A DNA stretch of 48,638 nucleotides, from contig CAIPTY010000005.1 of the NCBI GenBank assembly GCA_903868145.1, positions 1-48,638 on the forward strand. The letters are read 5' to 3'. A program made the position numbers and the translations under genes. This DNA comes from an uncultured Desulfuromonadales bacterium (lineage in GTDB: Bacteria > Desulfobacterota > Desulfuromonadia > Geobacterales > Pseudopelobacteraceae). This document shows positions 27,158 to 34,709 of this stretch, one piece after another. Each line of letters starts with the position of its first letter. The stretch's first letter is position 1. The notes below the pieces were generated by a model. The model was given only the letters and a program-made list of their open reading frames with translations. It was not told the origin of the DNA and ran no database searches.

Positions 27158-27186
27158 TTGACAAACCATCCGCTGGAGTCAATAAT
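27158..27186 (+). promoter_or_regulatory. Near-consensus sigma-70 promoter for nadB
   Basis: TTGACA at 27158-27163, exactly 17 bases, then AATAAT at 27181-27186 (5 of 6 to TATAAT). Transcription would start near 27193, giving a leader of about 40 bases before nadB. Confidence 0.8.
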
Positions 27187-27234: not shown

Positions 27235-28830
27235 ATGCGTATCGAAAGCGATTTTCTGGTCATCGGCAGCGGCATAGCCGGTCTCTCATTCGCCCTCCAG
27301 GCAGCCAACCATGGCAGCGTCGCCATCGTTACCAAGCGGGACATCTCCGAATCGGCAACCAAATACGCCCAGGGCGGCATTGCCTCAGTCTTTTCGGCTG
27401 AAGACTCCTTCGATGCACATGTGGAGGACACCCTGGTCGCAGGCGCCGGGATCTGCCATGAAGATGTTGTCAGAATGGTTGTGGAAGAAGGTCCGCAGAC
27501 GATCCGAAACCTGATCGAATGGGGGGTCAAATTCACAACCAGCGGCGCAGACTATGACCTGACGCGCGAAGGTGGACACAGCGCCCGGCGCATCCTGCAT
27601 GCCGAAGACATCACCGGTCGCGAGATCGAACGTGCACTGGTGGAAGCGGTGCGTCAGCACCCCGACATACAGGTCTACGAAAACCACATCGCAATAGACC
27701 TTATCACCGCCGCAAAACTGGAAAAGAAGACGCTGCCCGAAAACCGCTGTCTGGGAGCATACACGCTGGACATAAACGGCGGAAACGTCATCACCTTTTC
27801 TTCAACCGTTACCCTTCTGGCCAGTGGTGGCGCCGGCAAGGTTTACCTCTACACCTGCAACCCGGATGTTGCCTCGGGTGACGGTGTCGCCATGGCATAC
27901 CGCGCCGGGGCAACCATCGCAAATATGGAATTCATGCAGTTCCACCCCACTACCCTCTTTCATCCGTTGGCCAAATCCTTCCTGATCTCGGAGGCGGTGC
28001 GCGGCGAAGGAGCCATCCTGCGCCGACGTGACGGCACCCCCTTCATGGAAAAATATCACAAGCTCAAGGACCTGGCGCCGCGTGACATCGTTGCCCGCGC
28101 CATAGACAACGAGATGAAAACCAGCGGTGACGACTGCGTTTACCTTGATATCACCCATGAGCCGCCTGATTTTGTCCGCAGCCGTTTTCCCAACATCTAC
28201 CAGACCTGCATGGAATTCGATCTGGATATGACCAAACAGTGGCTGCCGGTGGTTCCGGCTGCCCACTACCTGTGCGGCGGTGTGGCGGTCAACCAGAATG
28301 CCGAGACCGACATCCCCGGTTTGTACACCATCGGTGAAGCAGCTTTCACCGGACTGCACGGCGGCAACAGGCTGGCCAGCAATTCTTTACTGGAGGCAGC
28401 GGTCTACGCAGGCAGGGCCTTCCAGCATTCCTCCAACGCATTGAAATTTCTGAAGCGGGATCAACGCAAGATTCCCGCATGGGATTCCGGAACCGCAACA
28501 AACAGTGACGAGATGGTGGTAGTCTCCCAGAATTGGGACGAGATCCGCCGCACCATGTGGAATTACGTCGGTATCGTACGCTCGGACAAACGTCTGGCCA
28601 GAGCCATGCGGCGCATCAAGCTGATCCAGGACGAGATCGAGGAGTACTACTGGAACTTCAACGTGACATCAGACCTGATCGAACTGAGGAATATATCCAC
28701 CGTGGCGGAGTTGATCGTCTCCTGCGCCCAGATGCGAAAAGAGTCACGGGGACTCCATTACACCATCGATTACCCGGAGCGGGATGACGCGAACGGGAAG
28801 CAGGACTCTTACATCAAGAAACAGTTTTAA
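27235..28830 (+). CDS. nadB: L-aspartate oxidase
   Basis: A 531-residue flavoprotein oxidising aspartate to iminoaspartate, the first step of de novo NAD synthesis. The FAD Rossmann motif is FLVIGSGIAGLSFALQA near the N-terminus; EGGHSARRILHAEDITGREIERAL, LASGGAGKVYLYTCNPDVASGDGVAMAYRAGA, PAAHYLCGGVAVN and GLHGGNRLASNSLLEAAVYAG are all typical; the C-terminal helical domain is complete. Under anoxia the enzyme uses fumarate as acceptor. Its own promoter lies upstream. The chorismate mutase gene begins 15 bases after its stop. NAD+ synthetase genes lie 9 kb away, but nadA and nadC are not in the window. Confidence 0.97.
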   Translation: MRIESDFLVIGSGIAGLSFALQAANHGSVAIVTKRDISESATKYAQGGIASVFSAEDSFDAHVEDTLVAGAGICHEDVVRMVVEEGPQTIRNLIEWGVKFTTSGADYDLTREGGHSARRILHAEDITGREIERALVEAVRQHPDIQVYENHIAIDLITAAKLEKKTLPENRCLGAYTLDINGGNVITFSSTVTLLASGGAGKVYLYTCNPDVASGDGVAMAYRAGATIANMEFMQFHPTTLFHPLAKSFLISEAVRGEGAILRRRDGTPFMEKYHKLKDLAPRDIVARAIDNEMKTSGDDCVYLDITHEPPDFVRSRFPNIYQTCMEFDLDMTKQWLPVVPAAHYLCGGVAVNQNAETDIPGLYTIGEAAFTGLHGGNRLASNSLLEAAVYAGRAFQHSSNALKFLKRDQRKIPAWDSGTATNSDEMVVVSQNWDEIRRTMWNYVGIVRSDKRLARAMRRIKLIQDEIEEYYWNFNVTSDLIELRNISTVAELIVSCAQMRKESRGLHYTIDYPERDDANGKQDSYIKKQF

Positions 28831-28845
28831 CCTACGGAGAGACCA

Positions 28846-29124
28846 GTGGATATCAATGAAACCCGCAAACGGATCGACCTGCTGGATGATGTGCTGCTGC
28901 GCATCTTCAACGAACGCGCCCGGCTGGCGCTGGAGATCGGGCATCTCAAGAAGGAACTCAGTCTGCCGGTTTTCGATCCTGCCCGGGAAAAGCGCATCTT
29001 TGCCCGCATGAAAGACGAAAATCCCGGGCCGCTGGACGACGATGCCATCGTCAGAATGTTCGAACGCGTCGTGGATGAATCGCGGCGGCTGGAACGTATC
29101 ACATCACATAAAGAAGAAGATTAA
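28846..29124 (+). CDS. Monofunctional chorismate mutase, AroQ class
   Basis: A 92-residue all-helical protein. GTG 28846 has CGGAGA 6 nt upstream. The AroQ pattern is visible: ETRKRIDLLDDVLLRIFNERARLALEIGHLKKELSLPVFDPAREKRIFARM, with the expected Arg near the start and in helix 2, Lys in the KKE stretch, and DDAIVRMFERVVDESRRLE as helix 3. It converts chorismate to prephenate for Phe and Tyr. It has no attached prephenate dehydratase. It sits between nadB and the free-standing DAHPS domain gene 16 bases downstream. Confidence 0.9.
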   Translation: MDINETRKRIDLLDDVLLRIFNERARLALEIGHLKKELSLPVFDPAREKRIFARMKDENPGPLDDDAIVRMFERVVDESRRLERITSHKEED

Positions 29125-29140
29125 GGAGTTAGTTAATATC

Positions 29141-29350
29141 ATGTTGATAATAATGAAAAAACACGCCGAAGAATCCGCATTGGACCAGATCAAGGAGTAC
29201 CTGATTACCCGGGATTTTGATATCCACCAGTCAACAGGGGCCAACCGCACCATCATCGGAGTGATCGGCGACACGGAAACCCTCGATGATCACGCAATCG
29301 AGGCAATGCCGGCGGTCAGCCAGGTGGTCAGAATCAGGAAAGATGATTAA
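29141..29350 (+). CDS. Free-standing DAHP synthase ferredoxin-like (FXD) regulatory domain
   Basis: A 69-residue protein reading MLIIMKKHAEESALDQIKEYLITRDFDIHQSTGANRTIIGVIGDTETLDDHAIEAMPAVSQVVRIRKDD, which matches the N-terminal ferredoxin-like domain of type I-beta DAHP synthase (first enzyme of the shikimate pathway). In fused enzymes this domain binds Tyr/Phe and inhibits the barrel. Here TAA at 29348 ends it and no catalytic barrel follows (a minus-strand gene lies downstream), so it is a stand-alone domain or a truncated aroF. AAGGAG lies about 12 nt before ATG 29141. Its place right after chorismate mutase supports an aromatic-pathway role. Confidence 0.8.
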   Translation: MLIIMKKHAEESALDQIKEYLITRDFDIHQSTGANRTIIGVIGDTETLDDHAIEAMPAVSQVVRIRKDD

Positions 29351-29369: not shown

Positions 29370-30443
29370 CTACTTCGGAATAAACTCTTCCTTCGACGTA
29401 ATCCTTCCCAGCGCAGCCACAATAAGTTTCGCCGCACCCTCAAGGTCTCCCAATGAAACCGTTTCCACCGGCGTGTGCATATAGCGCAGCGGAATCTTGA
29501 CCAGCGCCGTTGCAACACCACCGCGCGATATCTGCATGACATTGGCGTCAGTCCCGGTTGCACGCGGATTGGCAGTGCGCTGTACAGCGATCTTCTCTTT
29601 TTCCGCCGTCGCCGACAGCAACTCGAATAAACGGGGGTTGATATTGGCGCCGCGGGTCAATATCGGTCCCTTGCCCAGACCGACTTCGCCGTTATGCTTC
29701 TTTTCCACATCCGGCTGGTCGGTCGCAAAGTCAACCTCTACGCAGATACCCACATCCGGGTTGATGGTATAGCAACTGGTGGTGCCCCCCCGCAAACCGA
29801 TCTCCTCCTGAACCGAAGATACGCCGTACAGTTCTACGTTCAGTTTTTTCCCTCCAGCCTTCACCAGGCGCAGCACCTCGGCCACAACAAAACAGCCCGC
29901 CTTATCGTCGAACCCGCGTGATGCGACCCGGTCGCCATGCAAACGGGTGAAGGCGCTTTCAAAGGTAACCGCATCCCCTATGCTGACCAGCTTCTGAGCC
30001 TCTTTTTTGTCCCTGGCGCCGATATCGATGTACTGAGCCTCCAGCTTGACGACCGTTTCGCGGTCCTTGGTATCCATCAGATGAATCGGCTTTTTACCGA
30101 TAACGCCGGGCAACGCGCCGGCCGCCGAGTGGATGTTGACACGTTTACCCGGCGTCAGATGGGCATCCACGCCTCCGACTGCGGCAAAATAGAGAAAACC
30201 GCGATCATCGATGTACTTGATTTGCAGGCCAATCTCATCGGTGTGACCGACAACCATAACCTTCGGCAGGTCCCGGCCCTTGCCGGCAACACGGGCAAAA
30301 ACATTTCCCATCACATCTGTCGTCACCTCATCGCAATACGGAGTGACATACTCACGGAACACCCGTTGTGCGGGCTGTTCATAACCGGAAGGGCTGGGGG
30401 CATCAAGCAGTTTTTCAAGAAATTTCAGAGACTCTTTACGCAT
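29370..30443 (-). CDS. M42 family metallopeptidase (glutamyl aminopeptidase/deblocking type)
   Basis: A 357-residue dinuclear-metal aminopeptidase, usually a dodecameric cytosolic shell trimming peptides. The metal ligands are visible in VVGHTDEIG (His, Asp), in GFDDKAGCFV (Asp), in SVQEEIGLRGG (catalytic Glu plus metal Glu), in VCVEVDFATD (Asp) and in the C-terminal PLRYMHTPVE (His). ATG 30443 with AGGAG a few bases upstream is chosen; the frame runs to 30458. It is convergent with the DAHPS-domain gene and stands alone. Confidence 0.93.
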   Translation of the reverse strand: MRKESLKFLEKLLDAPSPSGYEQPAQRVFREYVTPYCDEVTTDVMGNVFARVAGKGRDLPKVMVVGHTDEIGLQIKYIDDRGFLYFAAVGGVDAHLTPGKRVNIHSAAGALPGVIGKKPIHLMDTKDRETVVKLEAQYIDIGARDKKEAQKLVSIGDAVTFESAFTRLHGDRVASRGFDDKAGCFVVAEVLRLVKAGGKKLNVELYGVSSVQEEIGLRGGTTSCYTINPDVGICVEVDFATDQPDVEKKHNGEVGLGKGPILTRGANINPRLFELLSATAEKEKIAVQRTANPRATGTDANVMQISRGGVATALVKIPLRYMHTPVETVSLGDLEGAAKLIVAALGRITSKEEFIPK

Positions 30444-30760
30444 GACTACTCCTGTCAATAAATAATGTTTTAAAATCTTTACGACTCGTTTGTACTAAAT
30501 AATATGATGAGTCCGCGATAAAGTCCTAATTGCGGGCAAATATGCGAGCCGGAACGGCGACAATACTTCGATTTTAGACCCTGGGGAAAGTAGCATATTT
30601 TCCCTCCCATGACATTTTATTTCCTATAAATATCGATAAATCTTCTGTTTTGCGGTTTACCACAATAGACAGCGCTTTATATTGCTCTACACTTGGCAAT
30701 AGTTGTTGAGCAGAATTGGCAAACAGCACAACTGATACGTAAAGGGGAGGAAGCAACAGC
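30444..30760. other. AT-rich intergenic region upstream of the signalling cluster
   Basis: No gene is supported in these 317 bases. It should hold the divergent promoters for the M42 peptidase (minus) and the response regulator (plus). A direct repeat TTGGCAA occurs at 30693-30699 and 30716-30722, 23 bases apart, upstream of the regulator's ribosome site; a sigma-54 site was looked for but not found convincingly. Confidence 0.4.
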
Positions 30761-31211: not shown

Positions 31212-32453
31212 ATGAAAAAAAAACAGCTGCATGAAACATCAGAGCAAAGGTTGCGCAGGATGGCCGAGGAGAGGATTGCCCGGCAAGATGATACGCCCCT
31301 CGAGCTCTCTGAGCAGATGAATGCTCAAAAACTGCTGCATGAGTTGCAGATCCACCAGGTTGAGCTGGAGATGCAGAACGCCGAACTTCAGAAGTCCTAT
31401 TGTGATCAGGAACTCCTGCTGTCTCAGTACAAGTTGCTGTACGACTTTGCACCTGTCGGTTATTTCACCCTCGATCGGGGCGGCTGCATACTTAAAAGCA
31501 ACCTTGCGGGCGCCAGATTAATCGGTAAGGTGCATTCCATGCTCCATAAACTCCTGTTAATACAGTGCGTTATCGAGAGTGATAAACCAAAACTCCTTAT
31601 ATTTCTTGAGGAAGTTTTTTCGGATCAATCCGAAAAACGAACCTGTGAACTCCGCCTGGAACAGACCGGGCGAGCGCCCTTTGTTGTTCTGCTGGAAGGG
31701 CATACTAACGGCTCCGGGTTGGAGTGCATGGTATCGATTACTGAAATCTCAAAACTTCGTATCGAAGAACAAAAATTCCGCATAGTTGCAGACAACACCG
31801 CTGACTGGGAGTTTTGGCTGGCCCCTGATGGTTCCTTTAACTACAACTCTCCATCCTGCTACAGAATCACCGGCTATAATCCTGCCCTTTTTTTCGACGA
31901 TCCTAAACTCTTGCTCACTATCATCCATCCGGACGACCGGGACATCTTCATACATCACAGACATGCCTATGCAGAAATAGGTCGGAGTGATCAAATTGAT
32001 TTTCGTATTATCAGGGCTGACGGCAAAATCCGCTGGATCGGCCATCTCTGCCGCCCCGTCCATGACCGGGATGGTGTTTTTCTGGGCACGAGGGGGAGCA
32101 ATCGCGATATCAGCGAACAGAAACGCTTTGAATCACAGATTATCGCGTTAGGTTCTCTCAAGGAGCGTCTCATTGCCACCATGAGCCTCAAAGAAAAGCT
32201 TAACATTATCACTGATGGCATCGTGGCTATCTTCGGCGCAGATTTTGCCAGAATCTGGCAGATCAGGAAAGGCGACCTGTGTAAAAAGGGTTGCATAAAT
32301 GCAGGGTTGAAAGAAGGAGCAGATATATGCCGTGACAGGGCACACTGCCTTCACCTCGTAGCCAGTTCAGGCCGATACACTCATATCGACGGTAATCACC
32401 GAAGAGTTCCCTTTGGCAGCTACAAGATAGGACGTATCGCTTCCGGAGACTAA
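31212..32453 (+). CDS. N-terminal part of hybrid kinase (coiled coil-PAS-PAS-GAF), ended by an in-frame TAA
   Basis: A 413-codon frame: a charged coiled coil (about 1-75, including the [13 protein letters not shown] motif found in many Geobacter kinases), a first PAS domain (about 75-180), a second PAS/PAC (about 185-305, DNTADWEFWLAPDGSFNYNS to RGSNRDISEQKRFE), and the first half of a GAF domain (about 310-413). The TAA at 32451 falls inside the GAF domain. Reading through, the same frame continues with [31 protein letters not shown], exactly what completes the GAF domain, and goes on to the kinase. So this is one gene broken by a nonsense codon, not a complete sensor. AGGGA lies 9 nt before ATG 31212. 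Confidence 0.8.
   Translation: MKKKQLHETSEQRLRRMAEERIARQDDTPLELSEQMNAQKLLHELQIHQVELEMQNAELQKSYCDQELLLSQYKLLYDFAPVGYFTLDRGGCILKSNLAGARLIGKVHSMLHKLLLIQCVIESDKPKLLIFLEEVFSDQSEKRTCELRLEQTGRAPFVVLLEGHTNGSGLECMVSITEISKLRIEEQKFRIVADNTADWEFWLAPDGSFNYNSPSCYRITGYNPALFFDDPKLLLTIIHPDDRDIFIHHRHAYAEIGRSDQIDFRIIRADGKIRWIGHLCRPVHDRDGVFLGTRGSNRDISEQKRFESQIIALGSLKERLIATMSLKEKLNIITDGIVAIFGADFARIWQIRKGDLCKKGCINAGLKEGADICRDRAHCLHLVASSGRYTHIDGNHRRVPFGSYKIGRIASGD
32451..32453 (+). other. In-frame TAA splitting the hybrid kinase gene
   Basis: TAA is codon 414 of a frame that is otherwise open from 31212 to 34709 (1166 codons with the stop). No frameshift is involved: both halves share the same frame and the GAF domain is continuous across it. 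Homologous GAF domains usually have Glu or a similar polar residue here, one base change from TAA. Confidence 0.85.
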
Positions 32454-32528
32454 TCCCGGTTTGTCACCAACGACGTTACCCACGATCCCAGAGTTCATAA
32501 CCATGAATGGGCAGAGTCACACGGGCTG

Positions 32529-34709
32529 GTGTCCTTCGCCGGATTCAGGATTCTCTCGACCGAGGGGAAACCAATAGGCGTACTGGCGCTGTTCAGCAAA
32601 CACGCCATTCACAGTGTCGAAGAGGGGCTCCTCGCCGACCTCGCCAATTATACGTCTCAAGTTATTTTGTCGGCTATTGTTCATGAGACAGTGCGGGAAA
32701 ATGAAGCAAAATACAGATCCATGTTCGAAAATGCCAACGACGCAATATTCATACTGAAGGGTGATGCGTTTGTCGATTGCAATGCCAAGACGCTGCAGAT
32801 GTTTGGCTGTTCAAGAGAACAGATTATCGGACACTCTCCATGCAGATTTTCACCGCCACTTCAACATGATGGTCAAAACTCAATGGCAAAGGCTCTTGAA
32901 AAAATAAACGCCGCGTTAGCAGGTGAGCCGCAGTTCTTCGAATGGCAACACGCTCACTATGACGGTGTCCCTTTTAGCGCAGAAGTAGGTCTCAACAGAA
33001 TAACCATCGGCGGTGAATTGTTTGTTCAGGCGATCGTACGGGATATAAGCGAGCGCGTCCAGGCAGAGCAAACTCTTCTTGCAACCAATCGTATGCTCAA
33101 GAAGGCAAAAGAGCAGGCCGAATGTGCCAATATTGCCAAGAGCCTGTTTTTGGCCAATATGAGTCATGAAATCCGCACCCCGATGAATGGCGTACTCGGC
33201 ATGACCTCCCTCCTCCTGAATACCGGTCTCGACTATACGCAGCGGGATTACGCGGAAACCATCCATTCCTGCGGCAATAAACTCCTGAGCCTGATTAACG
33301 ACATTCTCGATATTGCAAAAATCGAGGCGCACAGGATCGAGCTTGAGTCCACTGTCTTCGACCTGCAGGCACTTGTTGCCGATACGTTTAAGCTGTTCTC
33401 CCCGGCGGTGCTGGGTAAGGGGCTGGAGCTGAAAATATGTATTGATGAGCATTTGCCGAAACTGTTGAAAGGCGATCCGACGCGTCTTCGCCAGGTCATT
33501 ACCAATCTGGTCGGAAACGCCATTAAATTCACCACCTCCGGATCCATACAACTGGATGTACGAAATGGGCATGAAGATGATCAGGAATGTACCCTGAACG
33601 TTACCGTCTGCGACAGTGGCATCGGGATTGCCGAAGATACTCTGGAGATGATTTTCAAACCATTTGTTCAGGCCGACGGCTCTACAACCAGACGCTTTGG
33701 TGGTAACGGGCTCGGTTTGGCCATCTGCAGGGAGCTTGTGGAACTGATGGGGGGCACTATTACGGTAACGAGCGAGTTGGGAAAGGGCTCTGATTTCTCC
33801 TTTACCGCAGTTATATCTAAAACGACTGAGCAGGAAGCCCGGTTTTTTGCCGTGACAAATGTTCCAACTGTTACCGGTTATGCACCTCCACCGCCAGACT
33901 GCAGATTACTTCTGGCTGAGGATGATTTGATAAATCAAAAAGTGGCCAAGGGTCTTCTGGAAGGGCTCGGCTATGAAGTGGATGTAGTTGAAAATGGCAT
34001 TCTGGCCATTGAGGCCTTGCAGAGTCGGGACTACGACCTGGTGCTTATGGATTGCATGATGCCGGTGATGGGTGGCTTTGAAGCAACCGCCGTGATTCGC
34101 GATCCACTCTCGTCAGTACGTAATCATCTCATACCGGTAATTGCCATGACAGCCAACGCCTTGATAAGCGACCGGGACAAATGTCTGGTTGCCGGTATGA
34201 ACGATTATCTCAGCAAGCCGTTTGAAGTTGAAGAGCTGCAGCGTCTCTTACATAAATGGCTTTCACCTGAGGAGGAAATACGGCAAAAACCGGCAACTGC
34301 CGATAGGTGCGCGGCTGTTTTCAATGCTGAAAAGTTATTGAAACAGAGCCAGAACGACCTGAAATTGGCGCATGAAGTGGCGCTTATGTTTCTTGACTCC
34401 AAAGAAGAGTACGAGGGTGCTATCTGGCGCGCTGTCTACTCTTCGGATGTGCATGAACTGCTGCATAAGGCTCATAAACTCAAAGGCGCCACAGCCAGTC
34501 TAGCCCTGCCGCAACTCAGCAAAACGGCCGGTAAGATTGAGGCTATCGCAGCAATAGGCAATATCAGCAACGCAGCAGAATTATTACCATTGCTTGAACA
34601 GGACTTCGACCAGGCTGCTGCCGCTCTGCGCTGCTTCCTGAGCGCACCGGCGGGTGATACGGACTGTTATGAGCATCACGGAGATTGCGTCAACTTAAAA
34701 CAGGAGTGA
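32529..34709 (+). CDS. C-terminal part of hybrid kinase (GAF end-PAS-HisKA-HATPase-REC-Hpt)
   Basis: The frame after the in-frame TAA; the first possible start is GTG 32529, which lacks a good ribosome site and would begin within the GAF domain. Domains: end of GAF (1-45), PAS (about 55-180), HisKA with His213 in [15 protein letters not shown], HATPase with N-box [19 protein letters not shown] and [10 protein letters not shown], receiver with Asp508 in [13 protein letters not shown], and a C-terminal Hpt domain with His649 in [13 protein letters not shown]. All catalytic residues are intact, so kinase function would survive if this part were made from an internal start or by readthrough. The next kinase gene begins 69 bases after its stop. 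Confidence 0.85.

Follow-up and report, generated by a model that had tools for sequence, protein, structure and literature searches.

A stand-alone FXD regulatory domain encoded next to chorismate mutase in Desulfuromonadia and its possible role as a tyrosine-sensing subunit

Organization of the locus

The stretch of DNA analyzed here (the window, 48,638 nucleotides from an uncultured Desulfuromonadales bacterium) corresponds to contig C5 of an assembly of 3.8 Mb and 103 contigs. Three genes follow each other in the same direction on its forward strand: an L-aspartate oxidase-like gene at 27235-28830 (FAD_binding_2, E 7e-94), presumably nadB, which heads the apparent operon; the gene of a monofunctional AroQ-type chorismate mutase (CM) at 28846-29124, which starts with GTG and encodes 92 aa; and, at 29141-29350, an ATG frame of 69 residues and a stop codon, which encodes a stand-alone ferredoxin-like, ACT-type (FXD) regulatory domain. 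The gaps are 15 bases between nadB and CM and 16 bases between CM and FXD, the latter as stated in an earlier note on this sequence, which also described a retained ribosome site. This site is the GGAG at 29125-29128 (forward strand), located in the CM-FXD gap twelve bases before the ATG and likely to serve the FXD gene. A promoter-like TTGACA-17-AATAAT precedes nadB (27158-27186, forward strand); it is a consensus match only, from a scan that found two such sites against a shuffle mean of 1.3 and listed none between nadB and FXD. Downstream, an M42 peptidase gene occupies 29370-30458 of the reverse strand, with 19 bases between it and the FXD gene. The earlier note had an opposing gene beginning there, but it is the 3' end of the peptidase gene that faces the FXD gene, and the two genes converge.

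The CM product, which we propose as the catalytic partner of FXD, matches CM_2 with E 3.1e-23 (82.2 bits) and retains the equivalents of R11, R28, K39, D48, R51, E52 and S84 of the E. coli CM, which we take, together with Q88, to be the catalytic positions. The equivalent of Q88 is Glu in all 158 aligned CM loci, including the window; CMs with Glu at this position can show a shifted pH optimum. The top four PDB hits of this CM (2d8d, 5j6f, 5gmu and 3nvt) bear names that assign them to CM-DAHP synthases. The other CM match in the genome is a 369-residue frame, i.e. of PheA size.

Elsewhere in the window, a single in-frame TAA (32451-32453) divides the gene of a hybrid histidine kinase (31212-34709, forward strand) into two parts; the frame contains no other stop until it ends, and the TAA is due either to a nonsense mutation or to an error in sequencing. 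PAS domains are found in the first part, and PAS, HisKA, HATPase_c, receiver and Hpt domains in the second.

Identity and predicted fold of the FXD product

The FXD product matches PF18152 (DAHP_snth_FXD) with E 2.9e-22 and 78.7 bits (cut-off 27), covers the whole domain (model positions 1-67 of 67), and, up to E 1, has no match elsewhere in Pfam. It was therefore correctly recognized in the earlier note as the equivalent of the N-terminal domain of type Ib DAHP synthase, and the catalytic barrel is indeed missing: the chain of 69 aa contains no (beta/alpha)8 barrel such as characterizes a type Ib DAHP synthase, and the converging gene lies only 19 bases further on. The AlphaFold2 model (mean pLDDT 90.6) has the predicted order of secondary structure elements E-H-E-E-H-E. 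In a search of the PDB with this model, the top eight chains (TMq 0.84-0.88) come from 4grs, 1rzm and 1vr6 and correspond to the FXD domains of the Thermotoga DAH7PS; we take 4grs to be a laboratory chimera that joins the Thermotoga FXD to an unregulated barrel. A structure of IlvN is also among the matches, as a weak one (rank 43, E 0.25).

Conservation of the stand-alone gene

Relatives keep the same stand-alone gene, a point that the earlier note had left to be checked. A profile of the stand-alone form detects it in 114 of the 117 genomes sampled from the window's class, in frames of 69-173 residues, too short to accommodate a barrel. PF18152 itself has matches in all 39 genomes of a set comprising the window's own and 38 relatives, with three matches in 31 of them. 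In a sample of 395 genomes from the phylum, searched with the threshold of E up to 1e-20, the stand-alone form is present in 26, namely 17 from the window's class and nine from one other family (termed here f31), in which the gene is patchy: two members (G100 and G162) show only fused FXD domains. Beyond the phylum, the survey comprised one scan of named genome contigs, limited to the 80 top-ranking relatives out of at least 560, and the gene may well be more widespread there. These 80, together with 37 loci from the 39-genome PF18152 search, 40 hand-picked from the 117-genome class sample, three further ones and the window, make up a set of 161 loci, represented by the window contig and by 160 other stretches of 3.4-8.5 kb; the set reduces to 139 by distinct FXD DNA. 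In none of the 161 did we find a DAHP synthase barrel.

Among the 14 closest comparisons listed, seven (two of them representing one and the same sequence) give dN/dS of 0.02-0.05, while dS is saturated in the other seven, so that the estimate is rough, though low. The FXD gene is under purifying selection. That it is a real, conserved gene linked to CM is close to certain, and the proposal of the earlier note that it acts in trans as a stand-alone gene is strongly supported.

CM and FXD form a unit to which nadB does not belong

CM lies directly upstream of FXD and on the same strand in 137 of the 139 distinct loci, and the remaining two are cut short, with a contig end no more than 100 bases away from the FXD gene. 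FXD thus has a gene of its own, constantly beside one catalytic gene, as befits a separate regulatory subunit of the IlvN kind. The median distance between the CM stop and the FXD start is 5 nt; it is at most 30 nt in 116 of the 137 loci, and the genes overlap in 30, although some of these spacings may be off by a codon because 20 of 158 FXD starts were taken at non-ATG codons (10 CTG, 6 TTG, 4 CTC). Of 158 FXD starts (not de-duplicated), 156 have a Shine-Dalgarno-like motif ahead of them, as compared with 15% of random positions. No single-chain fusion of CM and FXD was found in these searches. Four candidates (L257-L260), with FXD frames of 157-173 aa, were rejected: these frames cross the CM region, where CM is encoded in another frame.

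The association with nadB is looser. In 120 of the 139 distinct loci it occurs at most 500 bases upstream of CM. Among the other 19, two are the loci at contig ends, one (L132) has a nadB fragment at the end of the contig, two (L151 and L195) have nadB 823-1075 bases away, and 14 keep the CM-FXD pair with no nadB in the locus DNA examined. Ten of these 14 come from f31 and four belong to or resemble the window's class; the neighbors in f31, inspected by eye, vary from locus to locus and include no aromatic genes. Since ten loci of a distant family have the pair without nadB, we regard CM and FXD as the conserved unit and nadB as its usual neighbor.

Stand-alone FXD is missing from four genomes: G247, G258 and G259 from the class sample, and G033 from the 39-genome search. 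In all but G259, the sole CM_2 match lies in a frame of 359-393 residues, i.e. of PheA size; G259 has a short CM frame at the end of a contig. The joint absence of FXD and stand-alone CM is supporting rather than decisive evidence, because gaps in the assemblies could remove both neighbors at once.

The ligand loop

The FXD product aligns without gaps with the Thermotoga maritima enzyme (1rzm), and the His29 and Ser31 of the latter, which we take to be contacts of the tyrosine ligand, are identical in both. The H-x-S motif is retained in all 141 distinct stand-alone sequences; 138 of them read HQSTG in the loop and have Arg at position 36, and three have His at that position. The FXD domains fused to DAHP synthases present a different picture: of 49 distinct ones sampled in the class, 28 have H-x-I, 21 have neither residue and none has both, while outside the class ten have H-x-S, ten H-x-I and one another combination (the class was assigned by hand from locus numbers, and five rows that were neither clearly alone nor clearly fused were set aside as "other"). 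The residues of the loop suggest that the stand-alone FXD binds tyrosine or phenylalanine. According to the passages of the Thermotoga literature that concern this domain, two ACT domains of the T. maritima DAH7PS come together and form the tyrosine sites (PMC5493349), either phenylalanine or tyrosine binds the ACT domain (PMC5526877), and tyrosine binding drives a reorientation by about 110 degrees (PMC4822156).

One of the fused enzymes of the window's genome, located on contig C10 (G000:C10:40294-41265, reverse strand), reads APIPG at the place of the tyrosine loop. The 21 distinct sequences of this C10-like type in the class have Ala, Glu or Arg instead of the His, and Ile instead of the Ser.

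DAHP synthases in the same genomes

The genome of the window encodes two type Ib DAHP synthases (on contigs C87 and C10), both fused to FXD, as well as an AroF-like enzyme of 350 aa (C96) and a KdsA-like enzyme (C53) with adjoining genes that are presumably kdsC- and kpsF-like (all named by eye). No barrel-only DAHP synthase was seen in this genome. Such an enzyme, one of the two trans partners suggested in the earlier note, therefore has no support as a candidate and was set aside, the type Ib enzymes being the two FXD-fused ones.

In a tree of FXD sequences (one of 216, with under 60 residues, was removed beforehand), the stand-alone sequences are monophyletic (140 of 140 tips, support 0.966), and their clade groups with the FXD domains of the C10-type DAHP synthases (support 0.842, with one extra tip), in agreement with the clustering given in the relevant part of a paper from 2009 (PMC2700814). 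This grouping keeps a link of the stand-alone domain to DAHP synthase alive. Six class genomes that keep the stand-alone FXD (G029, G036, G206, G208, G228 and G267) have three PF00793 enzymes each: one AroF-like by its size, one FXD-fused with H-x-I, and one of KdsA size (the frame in G267 is longer). The distinct fused sequences of f31 comprise ten with H-x-I, nine with H-x-S and none of the C10 type. In G520, a metagenome-assembled genome that is 98% complete, the stand-alone FXD is the only PF18152 match; there are two PF00793 matches, and their assignment as DAHP synthases is ambiguous. An H-x-I DAHP synthase is a possible partner of FXD in the class.

Several fused enzymes deserve a mention of their own. 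In some loci, e.g. L079:1607-3508 (G141), the frame of the FXD-DAHP synthase comprises about 630-690 aa, roughly twice the usual length; inspected by eye, the extension in L079 contains a prephenate dehydratase-like stretch, which suggests that the first step of the pathway and a late one are joined in a single protein. In L076:3959-4896 (G172) the FXD-DAHP synthase is broken across two frames, by a frameshift or an assembly error, and by eye its neighbors look like trpE and trpB. Two loci of G023 (L250 and L251) have identical C10-type FXD domains, suggestive of a recent duplication of that DAHP synthase.

A proposed split enzyme and its alternatives

The genes fit a split enzyme, in which CM would be the catalytic subunit and FXD the tyrosine sensor, and we consider it probable that FXD is a free tyrosine-sensing regulatory subunit of the adjoining CM. 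In the proposed mechanism, the product of the FXD gene would remain a free regulatory subunit, two copies of which would pair like the FXD domains of the T. maritima DAH7PS and build, by means of the invariant His29-x-Ser31 loop, a site for tyrosine. This subunit would bind the CM encoded just upstream, adjacency being of course no proof of contact, and tyrosine (possibly phenylalanine) would alter the CM activity through it, most likely as feedback inhibition at the Phe/Tyr branch. The mutase was the other trans partner suggested in the earlier note, and we favor it because of its adjacency in 137 of 139 loci and its absence in stand-alone form from three of the four FXD-less genomes. For the class as a whole we advance a broader scenario tentatively, as somewhat less than an even bet: the tyrosine sensor may have moved off DAHP synthase, in which the fused FXD domains sampled have lost residues of the tyrosine site, onto a free subunit that gates CM, the CM-FXD unit occurring also in a second lineage. 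Because of this move, the point of control would have shifted from the first enzyme of the pathway to the Phe/Tyr branch.

The alternatives differ in what they take FXD to serve. The earlier note allowed for a simple truncation, i.e. a deletion remnant of a DAHP synthase, and the identity of the domain with the N-terminus of type Ib enzymes is what such a remnant would show. This explanation is refuted, and we give it practically no credence: the short form recurs in 114 of 117 class genomes, no barrel accompanies it in any of the 161 loci, dN/dS is about 0.02-0.05, and intact DAHP synthases are encoded elsewhere in the window's genome. A more serious, yet still unlikely, alternative is that the free FXD protein associates in trans with the FXD domains of a full-length type Ib DAHP synthase and lends it the lost tyrosine site, CM being merely co-regulated. 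The Thermotoga tyrosine site is built by FXD-FXD pairing, as described in the pertinent part of PMC5493349, the fused domains sampled in the class lack the His, the Ser or both, and in the tree the closest group to the stand-alone sequences is that of the C10-type fused domains. However, the six class genomes listed above have FXD together with a single FXD-fused enzyme, which is of the H-x-I and not the C10 type, the fused sequences of f31 likewise include no C10 type, and it is CM rather than a barrel that accompanies FXD in the loci. G520, with its sole PF18152 match being the stand-alone FXD, points the same way, weakly in view of its ambiguous DAHP synthase set.

It is also conceivable, if rather improbable, that FXD is a conserved partner of CM that senses a ligand other than tyrosine or phenylalanine (e.g. 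chorismate or prephenate) or only stabilizes CM. The ligand is deduced from residues alone, and the whole HQSTG loop is invariant, which is more than two contact residues require; on the other hand, the H-x-S motif coincides with that of a tyrosine-regulated enzyme, the one from Thermotoga, in a gap-free alignment.

If the split-enzyme interpretation is true, the CM-FXD pair would be an allosteric enzyme split by nature, with a free protein of 69 residues as its sensor, and would parallel in nature what the chimera 4grs represents in the laboratory. It would show which enzyme of the aromatic pathway tyrosine controls in Geobacter and its relatives, and its two small proteins would lend themselves to studies of how ACT-type domains come by their partners.

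Comparison with known systems

The window gene is a further member of a pair already described, as the idea that the stand-alone domain may regulate CM was put forward, in the section concerned, by the 2009 paper on the Geobacter metallireducens genome, for the orthologs Gmet_1955/1956 (GSU1828/1829, the latter pair being the CM and FXD genes of G. sulfurreducens PCA; PMC2700814). The type Ib DAHP synthases of G. sulfurreducens are two, GSU3333 and GSU3142. In GSU1829/Gmet_1956, as in the window, a Thermotoga-type Phe/Tyr-responsive domain stands alone beside a monofunctional CM (PMC2700814, same section). Among openly licensed full texts we found no other paper on these genes, and no test of the idea. 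The present analysis adds the breadth of the census, the occurrence of CM and FXD as a two-gene unit, free of nadB, in a second family, their joint absence from certain genomes, and the contrast in the ligand site. The same part of PMC2700814 proposes, from clustering, that the DAHP synthase of the Gmet_0024 type may be inhibited by tyrosine. We assume that this is our C10 type, because the C10 FXD groups with the stand-alone clade; the C10 type, however, lacks both the His and the Ser, and if the two are the same, the contrast at positions 29 and 31 argues against that proposal as worded there.

The T. maritima type Ib DAH7PS (1rzm and 3pg9; chimera 4grs) has the FXD/ACT fold, the gap-free alignment, H29 and S31 in common with the window protein, but its FXD is fused to the DAHP synthase barrel, whereas the window FXD is a separate gene beside CM. 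The CM-fused type Ib DAHP synthases of Bacillus, Listeria and Geobacillus, to which the top four PDB hits of the window CM are assigned by name, combine their parts in one chain, unlike the separate, barrel-free CM and FXD genes of the window. IlvN/IlvH are separate ACT-fold regulatory subunits of acetohydroxyacid synthase; like FXD, they represent an ACT-like amino acid sensor made as a small subunit of its own, with a different enzyme and ligand, and their role is established, whereas that of FXD is inferred. The Mycobacterium tuberculosis CM, according to the portions of PMC5493349 and PMC6435475 that deal with it, borrows its allostery from DAH7PS in a non-covalent complex. It is thus likewise a CM whose allostery comes from a non-covalent partner, as we propose for the window CM, but it belongs to the AroQ-delta type and is partnered by an entire type II DAH7PS, whereas in the window the partner would be the FXD domain alone.
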